This document shows, piece after piece, positions 56-13,390 of a stretch of DNA of 64,000 bases (its first letter is position 1; each line of letters starts with the position of its first letter). The stretch lies in the NCBI GenBank assembly GCA_022925895.1, contig JAKSYS010000141.1:1-64000 (forward strand), read 5' to 3'. The translations under genes and the position numbers were made by a program. This DNA comes from Fragilaria crotonensis. Its lineage: Eukaryota > Bacillariophyta > Fragilariophyceae > Fragilariales > Fragilariaceae. The notes under the pieces were generated by a model, which worked only from the letters and a program-made list of their open reading frames with translations, was not told the DNA's origin and made no database searches.

Positions 56-897
56 ATGGAGATTTCAGGCTACCTAACGTCATCCAAGGAACGGATTGCC
101 GAGCTATTCCTGAGCTTTGCGTTCTTCGTTTTGGGGCGTCAAATCCCGGTTTGGTTTGATGCGCTTTATGGCGACGATGTTTCAGCGCCTTATCAGGTAA
201 CTGCCAATGGAGACGTCTTGATAGATCTGGGCTTGAACTTTCCCTCGTTTCCCAGACTGTGCCAGTCTCGATGTTGACTCGTTGGCGTGGTCTACCGATT
301 GTCATTCTGTTGGTAGTAGGCATTTGCAACGGCCCTCCAGGTGACGCACACGCTAGTCTGTGTGCCTATTTTCTATCGGTTGGCATGAACTCGTTCGTGA
401 CGGATACGATGAAGAACTACTGCGCAAAACTGCGACCTAACTTCTACAATATGTGCGAGTTCGATGCCGGTACGAAGACGTGCACCAACGATGTGTCCAA
501 CGCACACAAATCCTTTCCTTCCGGACATTCCAGTTTGGCATTCTGCGCCATGTCGATTCTCAGCCTTTATTTTCTTGGCAAAGTGGGTCTGCATCGAATA
601 CCCTTGAAAAATGACCCCACCAAGAATTATCCGTCCCTCGCGACCAAACTCATGGCGTGGGTATCATTTGCGATACCAATGAGCATTGCTCTTTTCGTGG
701 CATGCAGTCGAGTTCACGACTATTTCCATCACCCTGCGGATATTGTGACTGGGGCTTTGATCGGTATTGTTTGCGCTCTCTTCGCTACCAGTTTGTGGTA
801 CCCATCAGTATACTCCAATATGGCTGGGTATCCACTTCATTACACCAATAGCAAATATCCGCCACATCTAACAAGATCTGAAGCCGTCAGTGTGTAG
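56..897 (+). CDS. PAP2-family lipid phosphate phosphatase (5' end may lie outside the window)
   Basis: This is an integral membrane phosphatase of the PAP2 superfamily, which dephosphorylates lipid phosphates such as phosphatidic acid. All three catalytic motifs are visible: KX6RP (Lys-Asn-Tyr-Cys-Ala-Lys-Leu-Arg-Pro, near nt 412-438), PSGH (near nt 520) and SRX5HX3D (near nt 706-740). Hydrophobic stretches lie between them. Two reading frames are joined by a 59-nt GT-AG intron at 197-255, after an in-frame Gln codon and before Thr-Val-Pro. The first ATG is at 56, but the frame stays open to position 2, so a true start upstream of the window is possible. The gene converges on the DHFR gene with about 70 nt between stop codons. 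Substrate and membrane location are not visible. Confidence 0.88.
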
Positions 898-2297: not shown

Positions 2298-2711
2298 CAG
2301 CGAAACCCATCTCCTGTAGCTGACGATCCGAGTATCCCCTATTTCTGAAGTCCTTCACTTGCGCACGCTCAGATGCAATCATCTGTGAACGAAAAAGAAT
2401 GTTAGAACAGCACCATTAAGAAGTCAGAAACTAGCCTGCGTTGCTTCCTCACCTGTGACTCTACCGATTTCGAAGAGAAGCGGCATAAACACAACCATTG
2501 CTGTTGTGGCCACAACAAAGCCAATCTTTCCAGCCCACTTGGCCATCAACAGACCGGAGTCCTTCGCAAACAACCCTCCATCCCGGAAAGACTTTCCAGC
2601 TTTGATGAAGAATCCTTTCAGGCCTTTCGGCTGCTTCTGTTCCTTTGCCATTGATGTTACTGTTGCACAACGATGGTACTTTTTCACCATGGAGGTTGGG
2701 TGAGAGAACAA
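2260..2711 (-). CDS. TOM22-like mitochondrial import receptor subunit
   Basis: This is a small single-span protein. A basic N-terminus precedes a glycine-containing amphipathic stretch and one membrane segment (Val-Ala-Thr-Thr-Ala-Met-Val-Val-Phe-Met-Pro-Leu-Leu-Phe-Glu), resembling plant and stramenopile TOM22, the central receptor of the outer-membrane translocase. A second exon begins at 2382 after a canonical CACAG acceptor. It encodes a tail with Gly-Tyr-Ser-Asp-Arg-Gln-Leu-Gln-Glu-Met-Gly-Phe and stops at 2260. The donor is near 2447 (GTGAGG), but the simple splice leaves the frame off by one, so either another donor is used or a base is wrong. The likelier start is the Met at 2651 (Met-Ala-Lys-Glu-Gln) rather than 2711. 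Identification rests on topology and motif memory, not on a search. Confidence 0.6.
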
Positions 2712-3050
2712 GGACGGATTTTTGTGTTATTCGTGTCCGTCATGGCGAGGACAGCGAACGCGCTTGGCGGCCACAGTTGCCACTGATCTAAACGGGGGGA
2801 GGACTGACGACGACGTGGATCCAAGATACAAGTGCTCAGTATCGGGTCGTAAGTCTACGCACATGGTACTTGTACCAGTACTGAGTAAGGTGTGCGCTCG
2901 AAGCACAACGAGCCATGTTCGCCTCTACATACAGTTTTTCGAGAAATCCACAATAATTGCTTCGGAACAGTGGATGAGCCCTACTGCCATACTGCTTTCT
3001 CGACGATGACGACGTCTCCCCCACCATCTTATTGTAATGAGGAGTGAAAC
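2712..3050. promoter_or_regulatory. Divergent intergenic region between TOM22-like and HMG-box genes
   Basis: About 340 nt separate the two divergent starts, so both promoters and 5' UTRs should lie here. It contains ACTTGTACCAGTACT, one of the GTAC-rich words common between genes in this window. No TATA box or other defined element was recognised. Confidence 0.4.
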
Positions 3051-3918
3051 ATGGCGGACATGACAGACGATCATTCTGAGCTAGAGAATCAATCACAGAG
3101 CGACATTCTCTCTGATGGGTCCCTTTCCCCGACAAATAAACCTGAACAATCTACCTTGGCAGCATCCTCGAGTGATGTTTCTGAACCACAAGGCATGCCC
3201 GTTGGAGACTCGCAGGACACAGCATCGGAAAATTCCGACCCGATAGATCCCATTCTAGATCTGCTCGAATTCTCGGAAGATGTCATGTGTCCCGATGTGT
3301 CGAATATCTTGACTCGACAGCTTCAGGGAAACAATCCGACACCAGTTCTTTTGGAATTGGCGCGTTTCTTTCGAGCTCAAGCCTGCCTCCTCCGTGAACA
3401 GGCCAAAATACTGGATGAATTGGCGATTCGTGATACTATGCCAGGTCAGGATGAAGATCTCGACGATTGCCTTTATCGGGGTCGGGTGACTCATCTTGTC
3501 AAACTATCTCATGATGCCATGATGGCCACACATGACCGCATCGATGCGCTCGAGGACAGTGTGTACCCCTGGAGTGAAACGTGGTGCGTAATCATGGATT
3601 GATTATCAAATATCATTGTTGTTGTCATCTAGTACTGAATATCCTTCTTCCATCTGAAGTGGCAAAGTCGAGGGAAAGAAATTGTGCAAGAAGAGGACCA
3701 GGCCGGTCAATCGGTATACAGCCTTTCTCCATATGAATTTAAAGTCATGTGGGGCTGAAGGTGGTTCACGGCAAGCCATCTTCAAGTCTTTGGCAGCGCA
3801 ATGGAAGACCTTGGACGAAACCGAGAAATCAAAGTACGATGAGTTTGCCGTGGCAATCAATAGGGAGAAGGCTGCGCGAAAGCAATCAAGTAAAAGGGCG
3901 AAACTCGATGAAGGGTAA
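3051..3918 (+). CDS. HMG-box protein with acidic, Ser-rich N-terminal region
   Basis: This is a predicted DNA-bending or chromatin protein. Exon one (3051-3583) encodes an acidic, Ser-rich region followed by a helical segment (Leu-Glu-Leu-Ala-Arg-Phe-Phe-Arg and onward) of unknown function. A 76-nt GT-AG intron (3584-3659) restores the frame into exon two. Exon two begins with a Lys/Arg patch and then an HMG-box-like domain: Asn-Arg-Tyr-Thr-Ala-Phe near the start, Leu-Ala-Ala-Gln-Trp-Lys-Thr-Leu in the middle, and Glu-Lys-Ser-Lys-Tyr-Asp-Glu-Phe at the end. The C-terminus is basic (Ser-Ser-Lys-Arg-Ala-Lys-Leu), a possible nuclear localisation signal. The start is the first ATG of the open frame. 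Whether it is sequence-specific cannot be told. Confidence 0.75.
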
Positions 3919-5052
3919 AGATTGAGTTTCTTTGGCACCGGTGGTTCGCTGATGTCATATCCTAGCCTATTTATGGTTCAGAAATCTACATTTACGTAGA
4001 GAAATGGGTGTCCATACCGGCTTGAGCCTCGGAAGGCGTCCGTTGTTTGTAAGCCGCGGACGACCGTTTCGGCTAATGACTGTTGTTGTTAAGATAGCAC
4101 CGAAGGGATTTCCTGTTGGCGCAACTGTGTTCATCAATTCAGTGATGTTGAGGATCCTAGGATCGTGTCCCGAAATCCATATTCGCTCTACCAACGTACT
4201 GAACCGATCTGAGTTTGACCGTCCTCCAATATGGAAGAACGTTGGGAATGAATTGGCTTGAGTTCACTGTCACATGTGTGCTTCGTCTTAAGGTATTCAA
4301 TGTTGAATCGTTATCTCGAATGATTGATCAAATGAAACATGTCTCCCAGTCAATCAGTTCGCATTGGGTGCACGGATCGTTTGAAACTACTTGGACTTAG
4401 GATGGCTCAACGTCGTCCCATGCAGTTATAGTGTGAATAAAAACGAATTGAATTGTGTTTCCGTCTCCTACAGGGCAAGCTTGGTGCCAGCAACATCAGA
4501 AACATGAACAGGAGGGAGCGGTAAAAGTGGGCTCTTGAATACCTAAATTGAGACTGAAGGTGGGGCGCAATGCCGGTCCCATCGGAACTGCTTGCTGTTT
4601 TGAAGATGTTCTGACCAATTCTCGGAATTCGAGCTCCAACCAGTAGCAAAAGGAAATGCTGACAATGAGGTGCAGTGCCAACTTGCATGCCTACTGGACC
4701 GCAACCACCTCCCGCGTTTCGATCTCTCCATGCATTGCCAGATATTCTGTGGCGTTGTTATCGTGACACGAACGGGAAATGGATAAATCAGACACACGCT
4801 ACAAAGCCATCACATACACCTTGGGAAACGCTTTTCCCTTGGATGACCCAAATGTACGAGCATCGTTCGGTTATCCTGTTACAACCAACAAGGTACGAAG
4901 TCGAGGCTAGGTGAACCTGTGCGGCGCTGGTGGGAATGCCAAAGACTTCTCTGTCCGGTTCATGTCAACCACTTGCCGCGTGGTGACTCGTGCATAAAGC
5001 GACTGAAAATCCTTAAGATAAACTAATTTATTCAAACACAGGATACACCGCC
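3919..5052. other. Intergenic, no recognisable gene
   Basis: Only short overlapping open frames of fewer than 95 codons occur on both strands. None shows a known motif or supporting splice signals. Nothing else is seen. Confidence 0.5.
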
Positions 5053-7476
5053 TTATGGCGGTTGAACATCAACGTCAACTTCTCTTCTCCTCACTTTCCT
5101 TTGCCTATGCCGGGGGTGACTGACGTTTATTTGGATCATGGTGTCAAAGTCAATTTCATACGTCCACATCTTGCCCTTGAACCTCTGGGTACTCAAAGGT
5201 GAAACATCATTTGTGTATGCCCGGTAAGCCGATTCAACGATTGCCTGCGACTGTGATGCAATAGGGTGCCATCCATCATCTTCATATTCCCACACAAAGG
5301 TCTTATCATCATCGGCGGTCGACGTGTTAGAGCCCTCTTCCGACGGAAAGCTACTCGTTGCCATAGTGGCGGTGCAACTAGTCTCGCCACATCTTCCTTA
5401 CACTTGTATGGAGTACGAGGTCTCTCTCCCCTGTAGTACCTAACCAAATAGTTTGGATATGCTCGACCATTTTCATAAACAACCCAAATGTGCGAACCGC
5501 CCGTCCATCCAGTGACTGTATTATATTTCATACCCGGACGTGGATGAATGGGCGGAACTGTCAATGCACTGCACTCCGCCTTCTTTGTGGGGCTCATCGC
5601 GGTTCATTTCAACTGCGTTCCCAACAAGAAGTTTTGCAAGAATCATCTCTCGTTCGTCACTATACCGTGTCGAATTTTCGTCAGGCTTGAAGGCAAACGT
5701 GTGAGTAGGAGCTTTGGTGGCAAAATAGAGACCCCACCCCAGAACCCTTTACGGGAATATTGCATCATGAATCCGTCATGCTTATCACTGTATATGACTG
5801 ACGGTTCCAGGGAGGACGTGCCGTGCCAGACGTCGAGCTCTGTGTCGTCAATTCCGTTCATCGCAAACCTATTTTTGTGGAAGGAGTAATAGTCCCACAG
5901 CTCCTTGTTTTGGACACGCCACAACTTCGAGATCCATGCGTCTTCCATGCTTTTCGAAGCTTCCTAGTCACGCTCCAATACTCTTCATATTCTGGAAGGA
6001 CCTCAATGACAAGACCTGCTGAAGTAGACCATGTATCTGGTACTTGTACTTCTTGCAACGGTTCACGCTCGGGCGGCAAGATATTCTGGTAATTCCTTGC
6101 GTCCTCAATTCGCGCGTTGATATTTGCGAGCTGCTCACCAATATTGAATATCGCCTCCAATACCTTCTTCATCTCGTGTTTGTTCTTTCTATCTAACAAA
6201 TACGTAATCGACAATGCAGTAATTAACGACGCCATGATTGGAAGTACAATGAAAATCCATATAGGGGTTGAGACGCCAGGCGCATCGTCCAAGGCGGAAT
6301 GGACAAAGCTGCATTTGGTCCAATTGAGTGGAGTAGTTTGCCAACCAACCTGTTGTAAACTTCTAAATTCATACTGAGGGTTTGTCCTGAACCGGCCGTT
6401 CTTATCAAAGGATCGCGTCCACTCACACCCGTGAAATTGGTGTTGCACAGATTGTCGACCACTGCTGTACCATTATCTCGTCCACACACACTCAATAGAA
6501 ACAACGCGCGAAGATCAGTGTGGGCTGGGAGTTTATATTCTGCACCGTGTGCTACCATCACCTCATAGCTGTTGTATCGATCAAGAAATGCCTGATACTT
6601 CAGAAAATGTGGACTATGGAACGGTGTGAGTCCCAAGTTGCCGGTACGCAGCGGCAGCGAAGGAGCATTCCAAGCGTAATTGACCCACCCACCGCTGGCA
6701 TTCCAGATAGTATCAGGCTGGAAATGCGTTTGGGTTGCAAGGCCTTGAATGCGGGATGCATGGTCTGGAGTTGCCATTGCCACGATTATTGGGGATTTGA
6801 CCAGAGGCTTCTTTGTACGCATGCCTTTCAATCCTAGCAGAACTGATTCATCGCTAAAATCCCCATTTCCTTGGAGGCTGATTGTGTGTGAGTAGGCAAT
6901 GGTGGTACGTGTCCACGCATTCCCTCCTTCCTCCGGGGTCGCACTATGATTTCCAACCCATGCTTCCCCAGACTTGGTGATCATATCTCGTGAATAATGG
7001 GTGTCCGTGCAAATAACGGAAACGCGATCCCAGCCGAGCGATCGAAACAGTGCGACAAGAGCGCCAACCTGACCACGAGCGTCGTCGGGCGCGACAGTGA
7101 GAAAGAAGTTCTTAAAATCGTCATCATCACTTAGTTGCGATGTTGAACTCATCGAAACCACTGGGACGTATTCCAACGCAATCACTCGAGCAACACCTGT
7201 TGAAGCGCCAGAGCAGTGGCATCCGATCACGGCATGCGGTATCACGGGATGCCGATTCGTTCTGTTTTCAACCCAGTCCATGTCGACTGCCGGCGTCTCG
7301 TCGAATGTGTCGTTTTTCCAAATCCTGTCAATGACAGTTTCATTGCCCAGGCGATCATCCCACATTCTATCATCAGGATCATCCAGCACGTCAATATCGG
7401 TGTGTAAGATATGAAATCCCAACTCATTGAAGTGTATCAATGCCCCTATCCTCAAAGGAGATGCCATGCTACTCAT
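5053..7476 (-). CDS. Single-pass receptor: ANF-like ligand-binding domain, TM helix, PARP catalytic domain, WWE domain
   Basis: Order from the N-terminus: a type-1 periplasmic-binding (ANF-receptor) domain (7476 to about 6330) with several Asn-X-Ser/Thr sites and a late Phe-Thr-Gly-Val-Ser-Gly motif typical of class C receptors; one TM helix (about 6265-6194); a charged coiled-coil-like linker; a PARP domain (about 5960-5400) with Leu-Trp-Arg-Val-Gln-Asn, His-Gly-Thr, Gly-Leu-Tyr-Phe-Ala and Val-Val-Tyr-Glu-Asn-Gly; then a WWE domain (about 5330-5080). TM and PARP lead-in share one uninterrupted frame (6448-5960), so the fusion is not an artefact of joining neighbours. Five single-base frame changes (near 6420, 5960, 5735, 5580, 5370), mostly in short homopolymers, look like sequence errors. 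The third triad position falls on Val in Tyr-Leu-Val-Arg-Tyr, suggesting mono-ADP-ribosylation. No signal peptide is seen at 7476, and the frame stays open upstream to about 7605, so the start is uncertain. Confidence 0.8.
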
Positions 7477-8610
7477 ACTAATAATTGTAACTAGATTGTA
7501 ATTGCAATGCGTATCGTTTCCTGGGGCATGCGGAAATCCCTGTGGTTTCGGTACTCGTAGCTTCCAAGTCTCCCATATTATGACATACTCCAGTACAGAG
7601 GAGAAGTGCGTTTAAACATATCCTCTTCCCTGTTCGCCAGTACGCATTGCCGATCGGTTCGATCTGTTAATGTGCGAATGAAATGTTGCACAAAGATCCT
7701 ATGTTTGTCGCAGTCGAAATCCGATTCATGCCTATACACAAGATCTACCTGGAACCAGTAATACAGATCGTAGACTCTGGGAGGTCCGGTAAAATGACGT
7801 TTCTCTCGTAGCTTCTACATGCAATGAATACCAAGCAGAGGTGCGTGGCCGGACCTTCATGGGACCAGCGACTGCGATTATGTCATAAGTCATAAGTCGT
7901 GTGACATCCACCGAGCACAAGTATGTATACTAAGTTGAACTGCCGGTATCATACGCGTACTATCATATGTACGCTAGACACTCCACTCTCCACTAGTAGT
8001 AGAGACTCTCCTCTACTAGAGTAGACTCTAGTAGTAGACTTCTGGTACAGATCAGTTCCACGATCGAGAAACCAGGCCTCCCAATTTTCCTGTCTAAAAA
8101 AAAATAAAATTTGCGGCGTCGGTCATCTGCCCTGCTGACTGCTGAGGAAAAGTATGGACGGAGTCGGCTTGGTCGTGATTTGACCTTTGGCGTGCCATGG
8201 ACGCCCGTAGCACCTAGTAGTACCTGGTACCAGGGACCAGGGAATTATGTCGCTGTACAAGTACTTGTACCTTATACCAATACCTGGTACCATGAAGGAA
8301 GCAGGGCATCTCATGTGAACTCAGCATACATACTACTACAACGTACAACTACTCAGTCCTGTTTAGCAACCACGAGTCGGCCTGGGAGATGCGGGAAAGT
8401 ACTCTTTGGAGGTAAACTAGACAGTAGACCGCAGACTACTACGGTACACTATATTGTTAACGTACCTTAACCACCCTTACAAATACATTGTATGGCTGGA
8501 TGCATATTCTGGGTACACGAGGTAGCCCCACGTAGGTCGTAGTATTCAATGTTTTTGTTCAGACGTAGAAAGTATACTAAGTCTACGCAAACGCAAATGG
8601 ATCGAGGTTT
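7477..8610. other. Intergenic, simple palindromic tracts
   Basis: No gene is supported. Around 7990-8040 there are nested CTAGTAGTAGAG and CTCTACTAG words that can pair, and around 8215-8300 repeated TACCTGGTACCAGG and GTACTTGTAC words. If the transposon ending at 8611 has the same layout as its relative at 41.4 kb, its terminal inverted repeat should lie near 8460, but I could not find a convincing match. Confidence 0.45.
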
Positions 8611-11600
8611 CTAATCTGGATTCATCACAAACTTGAAATCGAAGTCCATTACACATCGATGTGTTTTGAACTCCCGAAGCAGTTTCTCCAATGCAACAGG
8701 ACCATACTTTGCACAGTCTTGCTGTATTTCAGCACTGACTTGCCCGCTATCAATGGCGTGGTAAGCAAGAAGATATTGACGAGCTCGTTTCGCAAATTTT
8801 CGAATGCGTTCAATTGAAAGGACTTTCTCCGACAAAGAATATCTAACGCCTGCCATGAAATTTTCCTTCCCTTTCTTTTCTTTTAAGGTGAGATTGCGGT
8901 ATGCACCTTGCTGCATGCCCACATGTACTCAACGCCTTCACCTGCTATTTCGGCATGACACTTGGGGTTAGCATGACTTCCACGCCAATTTTTGCTCCGA
9001 CATGCTCCATCATGCTTTCTTCGTTCAAGAAATCAGAACACATCGCCATTAGATGGCGCAAACTCAAGCTCAAGTCCACGTTTCCGAGCTCATCCTTCCT
9101 GCCGGTAAGTGTATAGCTTGACAGCTTGTTCATATCAATATATCCTCGCTCCCACAACACCTGAAGCAAACCCTTTGCCTTTCCCACCCAACCTTCCTTT
9201 ATTTTAGGAACTTCGCGATTGATCGGGATATTTTTGTCGATACAAATAGCGATCAGTTCTTTTGTTCTTTCCTTTGGTGTTAATGCCTTGACGACGTAGT
9301 TCGAGGATTAATTCGGATTTGTTTCTTGAGACATTTGACGGATCGCCATCGACTTGATCAAGGCGACTGAGAATGCGTTCGTTTGGTATCATCCAGAAAG
9401 GTCCAACATCAACTTCGGTAAATGTCAATCGCTGAGTTTGGCCGGGCTCCAGGATACGTGCATATGGACCGAGGAAGCCGGATTCCCTTTCAATGACAGT
9501 CGGGTGCATGACTGGGCATTTTCCACCAAATGATCTATTCATTTTAGCTGCATTGAGACCATCGGGGCGCTGCTTTGCGTGTCCTGATGAATGATCGAAT
9601 AGAAATACAAAATGGACCTGTGGATGCATAACCTTTAGACAATCAACGACATCTTCGAACTGTAGCACCATGTGATTATAATCCCAGTAGCCCTCTTTGT
9701 TTTCCCTGTAGTCGAAGTATGTTAGAATGGCGACTTGCCAGCTAATAGAAGGGGCTTAAGGGAAGAGCCTAAGACTTCCATTGCTGCTTCTTCATCGGCA
9801 TATCTCGTTCCTTGCCGTATCTCGTTCACTGAGTCTAGTGTGTTTTGATCTAATTCTTGGATCAAACCATATTCCCTGCAGATAAATGATGATATCATCA
9901 CCCCGCTCCTTCATCCTTGGGGAGGAGAGGACGCTCGCCTTTGGGACCTGTCCACATCTTTGAAAGAAACGAGAACTGCTTAAAGATGGCCTCGTCCTGC
10001 CCGACAAAGATGACTATTGGCTTGCTTGTGTCCCGTCGTATGCTTAAGTGTGCTCCAAAGAACGCCGTCCCTACTATATCCGCCACTGCTTCACTCGAAA
10101 TGGCGTCAACGTGATATTCCACCATCTCAACATTACTGATAGGATCTACGTAATGATAGCCACAGTTTTTGCAACCGAATCTTGTGCCTCTAGAATTTTA
10201 GAAGCTACAAGACTAAGCTGAACCCACCGATGAGCTTGAACTTCATGAGCGATGTATCGCTTTGTGAAGACAGGCCGATAAGCAAGTGTTTCCGCCTTCT
10301 CGTGTCCATCAACAAAATAATGCTTGCTGCGGTTTTTGTATCTGAAACCCGTGGCATGCATCCATCGAACAACTGTGGCAATGGATATCTTAGATAAACG
10401 GTAACTTTGAAGGAAGCTCTTCGTCTCTTGCGATAGCTCCAGCACTGGCGGTGTAACAAGGTCATTTTCTTGCGAATTGTCAGAAGTCTCCTCGATGCCT
10501 CGCTCAACTCTTGCCATCATCGTTGGAATCAATGTTTCAAGCACGTACGTGTGCATTCTTTCCACCGACAGTTCTTTCAGAATGCTTACTCCATGTTTCC
10601 TGAAAGCATCCATTGCGTCTGGATTCTCGATAAAGAACGGTGGCAAGCAATTTTTGGGTACAGGTGATTTGATAAAGGTGCCTTTCGGGCTGTAGGCCAG
10701 TCGTCTGTGCCACCTTGCCAGTGGTCGCCAATGGGAGTAGCTTTCAACTCCGACATCATTCATCAATCCAATTGAGTACTCGATACATTGCTGCCATGTC
10801 CACCTCGATGTTTTGCTCGCCTCGTCGACAAATTTTCGCAAGGCACATGCAAGGTACATGCTCCGATGCCTGATCATAAAGATGTCGTGTTCTGAACACA
10901 AATCCTCTTGATCGCCACCATCTACAAGTGTCCTCCAATCTGCAGCAATACTGTTAACCATCTCCAATTTTTCAATTCGATCCATGACAGCTTTCCGAAC
11001 ATCGCAATCAGTGCCATAATACAACTTTGGTGCGAAGAGCTTTCTGGAATCGCCAGATTCCCAATACGAGGATAATTGCAGCGACGGTTCTTGAGCGGTG
11101 AGGATCAACAAGGAACTAGTAGGGGTTGTTTCCTCTATCTGAGTTTCGTTTGCTTGGTCAGAAGCAAGCTTACGCTTCTTAGTATTCACAGGTCCAGGAA
11201 CAGCCGAAAAAAATTGCGAGGAGGATGATGTGGTGAAGTCAACATGTTGACGAGTCCTTGGAGGCAGCGGGTGTGAGGCATTTTGCTCTTTCCAAGCTAC
11301 TGAATTGGATGCGGTCGGGTAGGATTGGGGGACATCCTTTACAGAAACCTGAAAGAAATTGTACTTCTGTTGCTTTCCGTCTTCCCTTGCTTTGAAGTCG
11401 TGTCGAAAAAGCTTCAGTTGTTCGCCGCCACCACCGACAAAGATGTTACCCTCAATGGACTTCTCATGGTACTCCTTTCCCACAACACGTAGAAGCTCTG
11501 ACTTTTTCACCTTCAAATCATCTTGAAGCTGGCACCTTGTATTGATTTCATCCAGCAATGTGTCCGCTTGCCACCAAACTTCATGAAGTCGTGAATCTTG

Positions 11601-11687
11601 CAAAACAGCGTTGAAACTACTTCTAACGAACTGATACCTGATCTGATTTCTGTGGAGCTTCAGCGTGTTTTCACTCATGATGAACAA
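8611..11687 (-). mobile_element. Decayed IS630/Tc1/mariner-like DNA transposon, transposase remnants
   Basis: A long frame (10146-11687) and shorter downstream frames (about 9898-10125, 9204-9671, 8945-9187, 8611-8922) align block by block with the transposase of the element at 41416-44981. Shared blocks are Tyr-Phe/Tyr-Val-Asp-Gly-His-Glu, then Gly-Gln-Asp-Glu (first catalytic Asp region), then Phe-Leu-Phe-Asp-His-Ser (second Asp) and the Leu-Leu-Gln-Val-Leu-Trp-Glu-Arg-Gly block. The third acidic position (Trp-Gly-His-Ala region in the relative) is lost or scrambled. Five or more frame changes show it cannot make a full transposase. The protein differs clearly from its relative, so this is an older insertion or another lineage, not a recent copy. 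Ends and target duplication were not found. Confidence 0.75.
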
Positions 11688-12679
11688 GGAGATGAAATAT
11701 CTTCAAGAAGCTCCACGGAATATCAAGAATTGGTGAAGGTATGGACTGTCAAGGTCAATGGGGTTGAGAAGCAAGTGATTCGACGCATAAATCTATTTTC
11801 GATGCGCACGCATTAAAAAAATCGTGGTACTAGTACGTAGAGCTCTACCTCGCGAATCCTGTTCGTGAATCCAGCCATACGAATGCGATGTAACTTGTGT
11901 CTAAACGGTAGACCTTCATTCGACTTGCGAACGTGAATCAACCTTCAATATCATACGCCGTGGTGGTACTTGTACTTGAACCTGTTACAAGTACTCCGTG
12001 TGGACGAAGCGGATATAGGATATATGCGTACACGAGTATTCTATGTTCTATGTGGTATGTGGTAAAAGTACCAGGTACCAGTACTCCTTACCTGTGCCGA
12101 CAACGTACATATGTTGATCTGTGCTCTGTTAATTGGTGAATGCATAGTACGTTGGATGTATGAAATATGAACAACTGCATAGAGAGTATTGAATTGTGCA
12201 GTACCGTACTGTACCATTGCAGTGGAATACACGAGTGTTGGTAATCGGCACGCGGGATGCTGCAAGCTGTTTGATGGGATTGGAGCAGCCATTTTCATGC
12301 CACGGTTATTTTCATACAGTGCTCGAACTCCACCATAATACTAGTAGACACTACTACCGCTATGTAGCTCCAGCAGAGAATATAGAGAGGTCTCTACTAA
12401 TTGAGTTTTGTGGATTACTGGTGCCGGTGTATTTGGTGGCATATTTTAATACTCGAGTACATGGGGAAGGCCTTTATCATGCTTCGTCTTTAGCCAGTGG
12501 TGTGCTAGTAGTAGTACACTACTACCAGGCACCATACCATACCATACAAAACCACTTGTCTTAATAGTAGAACGTGATCTATGTGTTCACCAGGGCTCCT
12601 TCCTCGAATCACGAGTGACGGACGAAACGGATCAGATATCGGGTCAGATATCTGTCAGATGTTGTACCAGGCGGCTCTC

Positions 12680-13390
12680 GTAGAAAACATCACCTCGTCC
12701 ACCAGATCTGATCAGATGTCGGTCAGATGATCTGTTCAGATCTGCATATATTTACGACCTCGCATGATATTTTTTGTACCACGAGCGTCGTAGAAAAAAA
12801 CAGATATCTGTCCACGATCTGGCAGATATCTGATCTGTTTCGTCCGTCAAGCATAACATTGTTTTTGCCAAACTTTGAGAGCCCATAACTTTGCCAATAA
12901 TGGCACCAAAGTAGATATTGAAACAGATTCGGAAAGCGCGAGATGTGAACTTTCCGAATCTGTCCTTCATTTTATAATAACCTTCTTCGTTCAATTGTTA
13001 TATCCCGACAAATGTTGTCGATTTTGTTGTTTTCGGGAAAAAGTGCTTTCTGATGAGCCTCTAACTCTTCAACGAAGTGAGATACAAGATAAAGTAGTGC
13101 AGATTTGGAAAGCTGCTTCATAGGGCTTTTGATATCTGTTTCAATATCTATGTTGCTGCCATTATTGGCGAAGTTATGGGCTCACAAAGTTTGCCTGAAG
13201 GCAAATAACAATGGAATGCGCACCGTCTTGCCACCGGGACTGACAGATCTGAAAAACAGATCTGTGTCAGATGTTCTCGAGACATCCGTTTTCTTCTACG
13301 GCACTCGTGGTACAAACACTCCTCGGGACCTCGAACAGATGTCGCATCTGAACGGATACGTGCCACGTTGTACCTCATCAGATCTGTCGG
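12680..13390. repeat. Long imperfect inverted repeat (fold-back-like), arms about 250 nt
   Basis: The left arm (about 12680-12930) and right arm (about 13133-13390) are imperfect reverse complements. The clearest paired blocks are TTTGTACCACGAG with its complement at 13306-13318, the block reading GAGCCCATAACTTTGCCAATAATGG, and GATATTGAAACAGAT near 12913-12928 against ATCTGTTTCAATATC near 13133-13147. CAGATATCTG and CAGATCTG words recur in both arms and also upstream from about 12630, suggesting extra partial copies. No transposase is seen. It could be a non-autonomous fold-back or Mutator-like element. Confidence 0.7.
12925..12962. repeat. Perfect 13-bp hairpin inside the inverted repeat region
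   Basis: CAGATTCGGAAAG is followed after 12 nt by its exact reverse complement CTTTCCGAATCTG. A weaker copy of one arm (CAGATTTGGAAAG) lies near 13100. It sits at the inner edge of the left arm of the larger inverted repeat. Confidence 0.7.

Follow-up and report, generated by a model that had tools for sequence, protein, structure and literature searches.

Enzyme-linked receptors fall into classes according to their output, which can be a kinase, a phosphatase or a cyclase, and a ligand-gated ADP-ribosyltransferase would, if true, add one further output to this list. The receptor guanylyl cyclases are built from an ANF ligand domain, one transmembrane (TM) helix, a coiled-coil-like linker, and kinase-homology and cyclase domains. 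The gene described here, from the diatom Fragilaria crotonensis, resembles these receptors, and in particular the natriuretic peptide receptors, in its ANF ligand domain, its one TM helix, its coiled-coil-like linker and the enzyme placed inside, whereas PARP and WWE domains replace the kinase-homology and cyclase domains, so that the output would be protein ADP-ribosylation. Similarly, the Venus kinase receptors (VKRs) of invertebrates combine a Venus flytrap domain like that of class C GPCRs with one TM helix and an enzyme inside, and can bind amino acids (PMC2680970). Their output is a tyrosine kinase, whereas here it is a PARP. By analogy, the protein would rather probably work like the receptor cyclases and the VKRs while belonging to neither.

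WWE-bearing mono-ADP-ribosyltransferases (mono-ARTs) include PARP7, 11, 12, 13 and 14. The clade 3 enzymes of this kind share with the present gene the combination of WWE and PARP and the replacement of the catalytic Glu, the third position holding Ile, or Val in two cases, in the WWE-bearing animal PARPs of clade 3E (Citarelli and co-workers, PMC2964712); unlike it, they are without a sensor ectodomain and carry the WWE domain before the PARP domain, whereas in the ANF type described below it follows. PARP and a TM helix within one chain have been described for PARP16, for a sponge PARP12-like protein with an N-terminal TM helix and for some rhizarian clade 3 proteins, but the account given of them reports no ligand-binding ectodomain (PMC4245714). 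None of the matches listed in a search of the open-access literature mentioned an extracellular sensor on a PARP; the author of a previous sequence-only reading of this locus knew of no described receptor ADP-ribosyltransferase of this design.

The gene, its paralogues and a second sensor type

The window, that is the whole stretch of 64,000 nucleotides analysed, carries the gene on the minus strand, from the first ATG at 7476 to the stop at 5053 (5053..7476). Both ends, and all the domains that the sequence-only reading had placed between them, are borne out, but that reading gave no strand and omitted the frame breaks: the window copy is spread over five overlapping frames (7611-6223, 6472-5858, 5963-5643, 5603-5193 and 5397-5053), and an intact copy lies on contig C658. 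The sensor domain, of the ANF_receptor or periplasmic-binding type 1 (Venus flytrap) kind, occupies 6415..7476, with a Pfam core at 7254-6415 that scores 62.5 bits for PF01094, above the cut-off. It is followed by a single TM helix (IWIFIVLPIMASLITALSI, 6206..6262, Kyte-Doolittle 19-residue mean 2.43), flanked by no Lys or Arg in the 15 residues before and by five in the 15 after, and by a charged, coiled-coil-like juxtamembrane linker (6041..6205), in which the hydrophobic share of a/d positions is 0.56-0.62 across six genes by a simple raw heptad count. As had been stated earlier, the TM helix and the lead-in to the PARP domain share one frame, 6472-5858. The limits of the PARP catalytic domain (5436..5986) were mapped from the C658 copy; in the window copy the domain is broken over several frames and therefore scores below the PF00644 cut-off of 26.7 (12.3 bits, E 0.12). 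The WWE domain, C-terminal to PARP at 5086..5298, exceeds its own cut-off (PF02825, 48.9 bits in the window frames and 49.5 bits in the genome search).

On C658, the same order of ANF domain, TM helix, linker, PARP and WWE is held by one open frame of 846 codons, or 812 counted from the ATG of the window, with ANF, PARP and WWE at 67.2, 45.0 and 44.7 bits. Single frames also encode the architecture on C328 (863 codons; 139.4, 52.1 and 47.3 bits) and C843 (859 codons; 120.9, 51.3 and 36.9 bits), all nine scores being above the Pfam cut-offs. Three further genes, two on C94 (C94:18k and C94:22k) and one on C299, show this domain order over two exons, separated by introns of 76, 71 and 85 nt with GT-AG ends, a GTAAGT donor and phase 2, which lie within a GLWG-RGIYF motif (GYWG in one gene) that is uninterrupted in C328. 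In all three, ANF and WWE exceed the cut-offs; PARP scans covered the second exons of C94:18k and C299 singly and gave 24.7 and 23.6 bits, below the cut-off of 26.7, the first-exon half of the domain being recognised by alignment. The frame of C94:18k extends beyond the usual C-terminus. Counting the window and C658 as one, there are six ANF-type loci, and these are not alleles of one another, since pS is at least 0.259 between any two of them in both the ANF and the PARP parts.

Because the whole architecture stands in a single frame at three loci and across one short intron at three more, neighbouring genes or a misassembly are strongly disfavoured as its source, and the protein of the window gene is almost certainly one chain with ANF, TM, PARP and WWE, as far as can be judged from the genomic sequence. 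The sequence-only reading had likewise argued for one gene rather than two neighbours, and a misassembly, which it had named as grounds for giving the fusion up, is countered by its recurrence in unbroken frames on C658, C328 and C843. AlphaFold2 was run twice, with mean pLDDT values of 39.5 and 28.5, and the models were unusable.

A second family, on contigs C89 and C41, has the TM helix followed first by WWE and then by PARP, the reverse of the ANF-type order; the earlier statement that WWE follows PARP holds for the ANF type, and fails for these two genes. The C89 ectodomain consists of Cache repeats, with dCache_2 at 59.1 bits in two stretches (its one match in the whole genome) and four repeats by eye, and its N-terminal part reaches 25.5 bits for sCache_2 against a cut-off of 25. 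Its first frame, of 768 codons from the ATG at C89:75113, runs through the TM helix and is overlapped directly after it by a 509-codon WWE-PARP frame, a frame change between TM and WWE that would come from an intron or an assembly error. On C41, TM, WWE and PARP lie in one frame of 723 codons; the contig ends within the ectodomain, and the Pfam scan gave no Cache match there. The two PARP domains are 84% identical and score 82.7 bits (C89) and 78.4 bits (C41) for PF00644 against the cut-off of 26.7. Two unrelated sensor types, ANF and Cache, are thus joined to the same PARP-WWE output.

In the genome as a whole, ANF gave 21 matches, seven of which belong to the ANF-PARP family including the window; several of the remaining ones, from frames inspected by eye, continue into seven-TM sequence, as confirmed for C230 by a 7tm_3 match of 109.2 bits. 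Neither a guanylate cyclase nor a 7tm_3 domain was matched by Pfam in the ANF-PARP and Cache-PARP frames scanned, which were those of the window, C658, C328, C843, C89 and C41 and the second exons of C94:18k and C299. C94 also carries, at a distance of about 12 kb from its two ANF-PARP genes, an ANF-TM sequence that is followed by a protein kinase domain (PF00069, 71.1 bits; L031 about 2511-5022). The frames of this gene are discontinuous, with one TGA inside the ANF match, and it looks as if the receptor output had been swapped.

The PARP-WWE output and its possible partners

The catalytic His and Tyr of PARPs bind NAD+, and both residues, within HGT and YFA, are present at all eight loci; the His codon of the WHGTS motif was verified at 5823..5825 of the window (minus strand). 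The third catalytic position, in the window the Ile of HIWVVYENG (verified at 5487..5489, minus strand), is hydrophobic at eight of eight loci, in keeping with what had been noticed in the window: Ile in C658, C328, C843, C41 and C89, Val in the C94 and C299 genes, and at no locus the Glu of the poly-ADP-ribosylating PARPs. H-Y-I/L enzymes such as PARP10, 12 and 14 are active mono-ARTs; PARP13 is inactive. Judged by these residues, mono-ADP-ribosylation is the likely activity of the diatom PARPs. The closest solved structures to their profile, as the best of 48 listed matches, are those of PARP15, PARP14 and PARP12, and RCD1 is the weakest of the 48 (E 1.3e-4).

Selection was compared between the parts of the protein by the Nei-Gojobori method, using those six of the 15 pairs for which dS was finite in the PARP part as well as in the ANF part. 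The dN/dS ratios, all well below 1, were 0.107-0.213 for PARP, 0.245-0.480 for the ANF part, 0.192-0.506 for WWE and 0.201-0.665 for the TM-linker region, PARP lying below the ANF part in six of six pairs and, in this descriptive comparison, below WWE and TM-linker too. A conserved output combined with a more variable sensor fits the pattern of a receptor family.

It is conceivable, though we regard it as unlikely, that the PARP domain is catalytically dead and that the PARP-WWE part of the receptor serves as a scaffold or as a reader of ADP-ribose or ubiquitin, as in plant RCD1 or in PARP13, with the recruited proteins doing the signaling. The hydrophobic third residue would allow for this, being Val in the C94 and C299 genes as it is in PARP13, and RCD1 has been described as inactive, with poorly conserved catalytic residues, and the WWE domain in general as a postulated interaction module (PMC2964712). 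Unlike RCD1 so described, however, all eight loci keep the His and Tyr of the triad; moreover, the best of the 48 listed profile matches fall into the PARP10/12/14-like group of active mono-ARTs with RCD1 at the far end of the list, and dN/dS is lower in PARP than in any of the other three parts compared.

PF00644 gave six matches in the genome, five of them above the cut-off and all six at receptor loci, in a search that missed the PARPs of C94:22k, C299 and the window and may likewise have missed other intron-split PARPs; PF02825 (WWE) gave nine, again all at receptor loci. With the C41 PARP as query, four matches were returned, all of them receptors, and the WGR domain of PARP1-3 type enzymes (PF05406) had no match in the genome. 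An early survey reported diatoms to be without PARPs (PMC2964712), and T. oceanica was later credited with at least two (PMC4245714). With every PARP detected in this genome belonging to a receptor gene, in a group first reported to be without them, the question of ADP-ribosylating receptors becomes a testable one. Outside the diatom, the PARP profile gave 463 pattern matches and no relatives in a viral contig collection, and 27 pattern matches with one relative in a prokaryotic one. This relative, L076, belongs to a MAG catalogued as Opitutaceae; it has a PARP of 25% identity and no TM helix of the receptor kind, its one weak hydrophobic stretch, at 1.67, lying far from the PARP. The profile of the full protein yielded 59 prokaryotic and 34 viral pattern matches in these collections, with no relatives in either. 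The genome searches also returned six Macro domain matches, with frames at C560:15994 and C560:21919 as possible ADP-ribose readers or erasers, and 19 matches to silicon transporters, as befits a diatom; three silicon transporter units share one frame of 1,456 codons at C97:29749-33762.

In animals, DTX2 reads the mark made by PARP7 (PMC12402299), and in the pairs PARP7-DTX2 and PARP9-DTX3L a Deltex E3 ligase of the RING-DTC type works with a PARP. Here, DTC genes adjoin a receptor-PARP gene, but the tie is one of gene neighbourhood at one locus. The three DTC matches found in the genome all map to C89:70470-73902, next to the Cache-PARP gene, where they occupy two open minus-strand frames of 528 and 280 codons. 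The 528-codon frame (L069 1285-2868, on C89) holds two DTC domains with 257.1 bits and a RING above its cut-off, a second RING being recognised by eye, and the third DTC domain is at C89:70470-70859. They and the Cache-PARP gene stand head to head, and 745 bases separate the 528-codon frame from the ATG of the receptor gene at C89:75113. We hypothesise from this one locus of eight that Deltex is linked to the receptor-PARP family. Members of the Deltex family are upregulated during sex in all four diatoms of an expression study, the main text of which contains none of the terms PARP, ADP-ribos and receptor (PMC12618581).

Topology, ligand and proposed mechanism

In each of the six ANF-type proteins, one strong TM helix (19-residue mean 2.37-3.34) sits where expected, and Lys and Arg number zero to one in the 15 residues before it and five to seven in the 15 after. 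Glycosylation sequons number 1.01-2.23 per 100 residues before the helix and 0.42-0.78 after it. Both the charge bias and the sequon density fit an ANF domain outside and a PARP inside, from which we infer an N-out/C-in topology with a predicted surface location. The comparison with receptors drawn in the sequence-only reading gains from the single helix, from this charge bias and from the second family, in which Cache takes the place of ANF. Weaker hydrophobic stretches (1.65-1.79) in C843, C94:22k and C299 coincide with the signal peptide or lie within the ANF domain. On visual inspection, the genes of C94, C299 and C89 have starts that resemble signal peptides, and among them C94:22k alone exceeds the 19-residue threshold of 1.6. 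No clear signal peptide was found upstream of C658, which represents the window locus, or of C328, and this is the chief weakness of the proposed topology; a hydrophobic candidate upstream of C658 is without a counterpart at the same place in C328, and the search at C843 covers 241 bases upstream.

In surface receptors, ANF and Cache ectodomains act as sensor modules. Together with the signal-peptide-like starts in three ANF-type paralogues and C89, and with the higher dN/dS of the ANF part compared with PARP, this makes it quite improbable that the protein is a sensor of luminal state in an inner membrane, be it that of the ER or another. The latter reading takes PARP16, a TM-bound PARP of the ER, as its precedent and can point to the window locus with its lack of a clear signal peptide, but in the available description PARP16 carries a C-terminal TM helix, with no mention of a sensor domain. 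A signal peptide by itself does not separate the surface from an inner membrane.

The ANF domain of C328 has mGlu6, mGlu8 and CaSR as its closest solved relatives. With the residue numbers of mGlu1 placed on the mGlu6/8 alignment where we take them to belong, equivalents of its main amino-acid contacts number five of five in C328 and C843, four of five in the window locus, and three of five (Ser, Thr and Tyr only) in the C94 and C299 genes. The five contacts are Ser165, Thr188, Asp208, Tyr236 and Asp318 (PMC2680970); at the Asp318-like position C328 and C843 have Asp and the window locus has Gly, and the latter also shows a 9-residue gap in lobe 2 relative to C328. Amino-acid-like compounds may be what some members of the family sense, and the member in the window may respond to a different ligand; the amino-acid-like ligand once suggested for the window fits C328 and C843 better than a pocket with Gly for Asp.

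Taken as a single chain of ligand domain, one TM helix and enzyme with a predicted surface location, the protein follows the plan of enzyme-linked receptors, and we consider it reasonably probable that the window gene encodes a ligand-controlled mono-ADP-ribosyltransferase receptor. In such a receptor, the outer Venus flytrap domain would bind a small extracellular ligand, and the closure and re-pairing of two flytrap domains would be relayed via the TM helix and the coiled-coil linker to two cytosolic PARP domains. These, being of the H-Y-I type, would then alter the mono-ADP-ribosylation either of the receptor or of targets bound to it. The WWE domain would hold or read partners that carry ADP-ribose or ubiquitin, and the ADP-ribose mark may be converted to ubiquitylation by Deltex E3 ligases (RING-DTC). 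To our knowledge, few of the receptors with which diatoms perceive sex pheromones or bacterial cues are known. Tentatively, one may think of a diatom receptor class with mono-ADP-ribosylation as its output, in which Venus flytrap or Cache sensors act on one PARP-WWE module, Deltex-type E3 ligases read the mark and lead on to ubiquitylation, and the PARP family of the genome serves surface signaling as a whole. Mating or neighbour signals would be possible inputs, proposed because in four diatoms the expression of the Deltex family goes up during sex (PMC12618581).

The window copy compared with C658

Over window positions 2975-8492, an alignment of 5,556 columns with C658 contains no substitutions and 22 short indel events, of which 21 are losses in the window copy, 20 sit in homopolymers or tandem units and nine fall within 5053-7510. 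The flanks are collinear except for one mobile element: window positions 486-736 are identical to C658 (251/251), and collinearity resumes at 11878-13328 with one mismatch and three gaps. Since indels, mostly in homopolymers and tandem units, occur here with no substitutions, consensus errors are favoured over gene decay, and the two contigs are read as two haplotypes, that of the window carrying such errors; they may also represent a duplication too recent for substitutions. Decay after duplication, or a chimera assembled from two genes, is very improbable as an account of the window copy, for although this copy is spread over five frames with a PARP score below the cut-off, the indel pattern speaks against decay, the collinear flanks against both, and the full unbroken architecture at three other loci, in single open frames on C658, C328 and C843, led us to reject a chimera or misassembly of neighbouring genes.

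The mobile element, of about 3.39 kb at window positions 8491-11879, is flanked by a TA target duplication, has terminal inverted repeats (TGGCTGGAT/ATCCAGCCA) and is missing from this site in C658. At least 13 near-full copies of 99-100% identity exist elsewhere, with 36 of 274 candidates scored. Its frame at 10146-11702 (minus strand, 518 codons) matched no family above the cut-off in the Pfam scan. Elsewhere in the window, a DHFR-like piece lies at 1251-1628 on the minus strand (24.2 bits against a cut-off of 25), and the plus strand carries an HMG box at 3658-3918 (26.6 bits) and a PAP2 phosphatase at 160-897 (87.3 bits).
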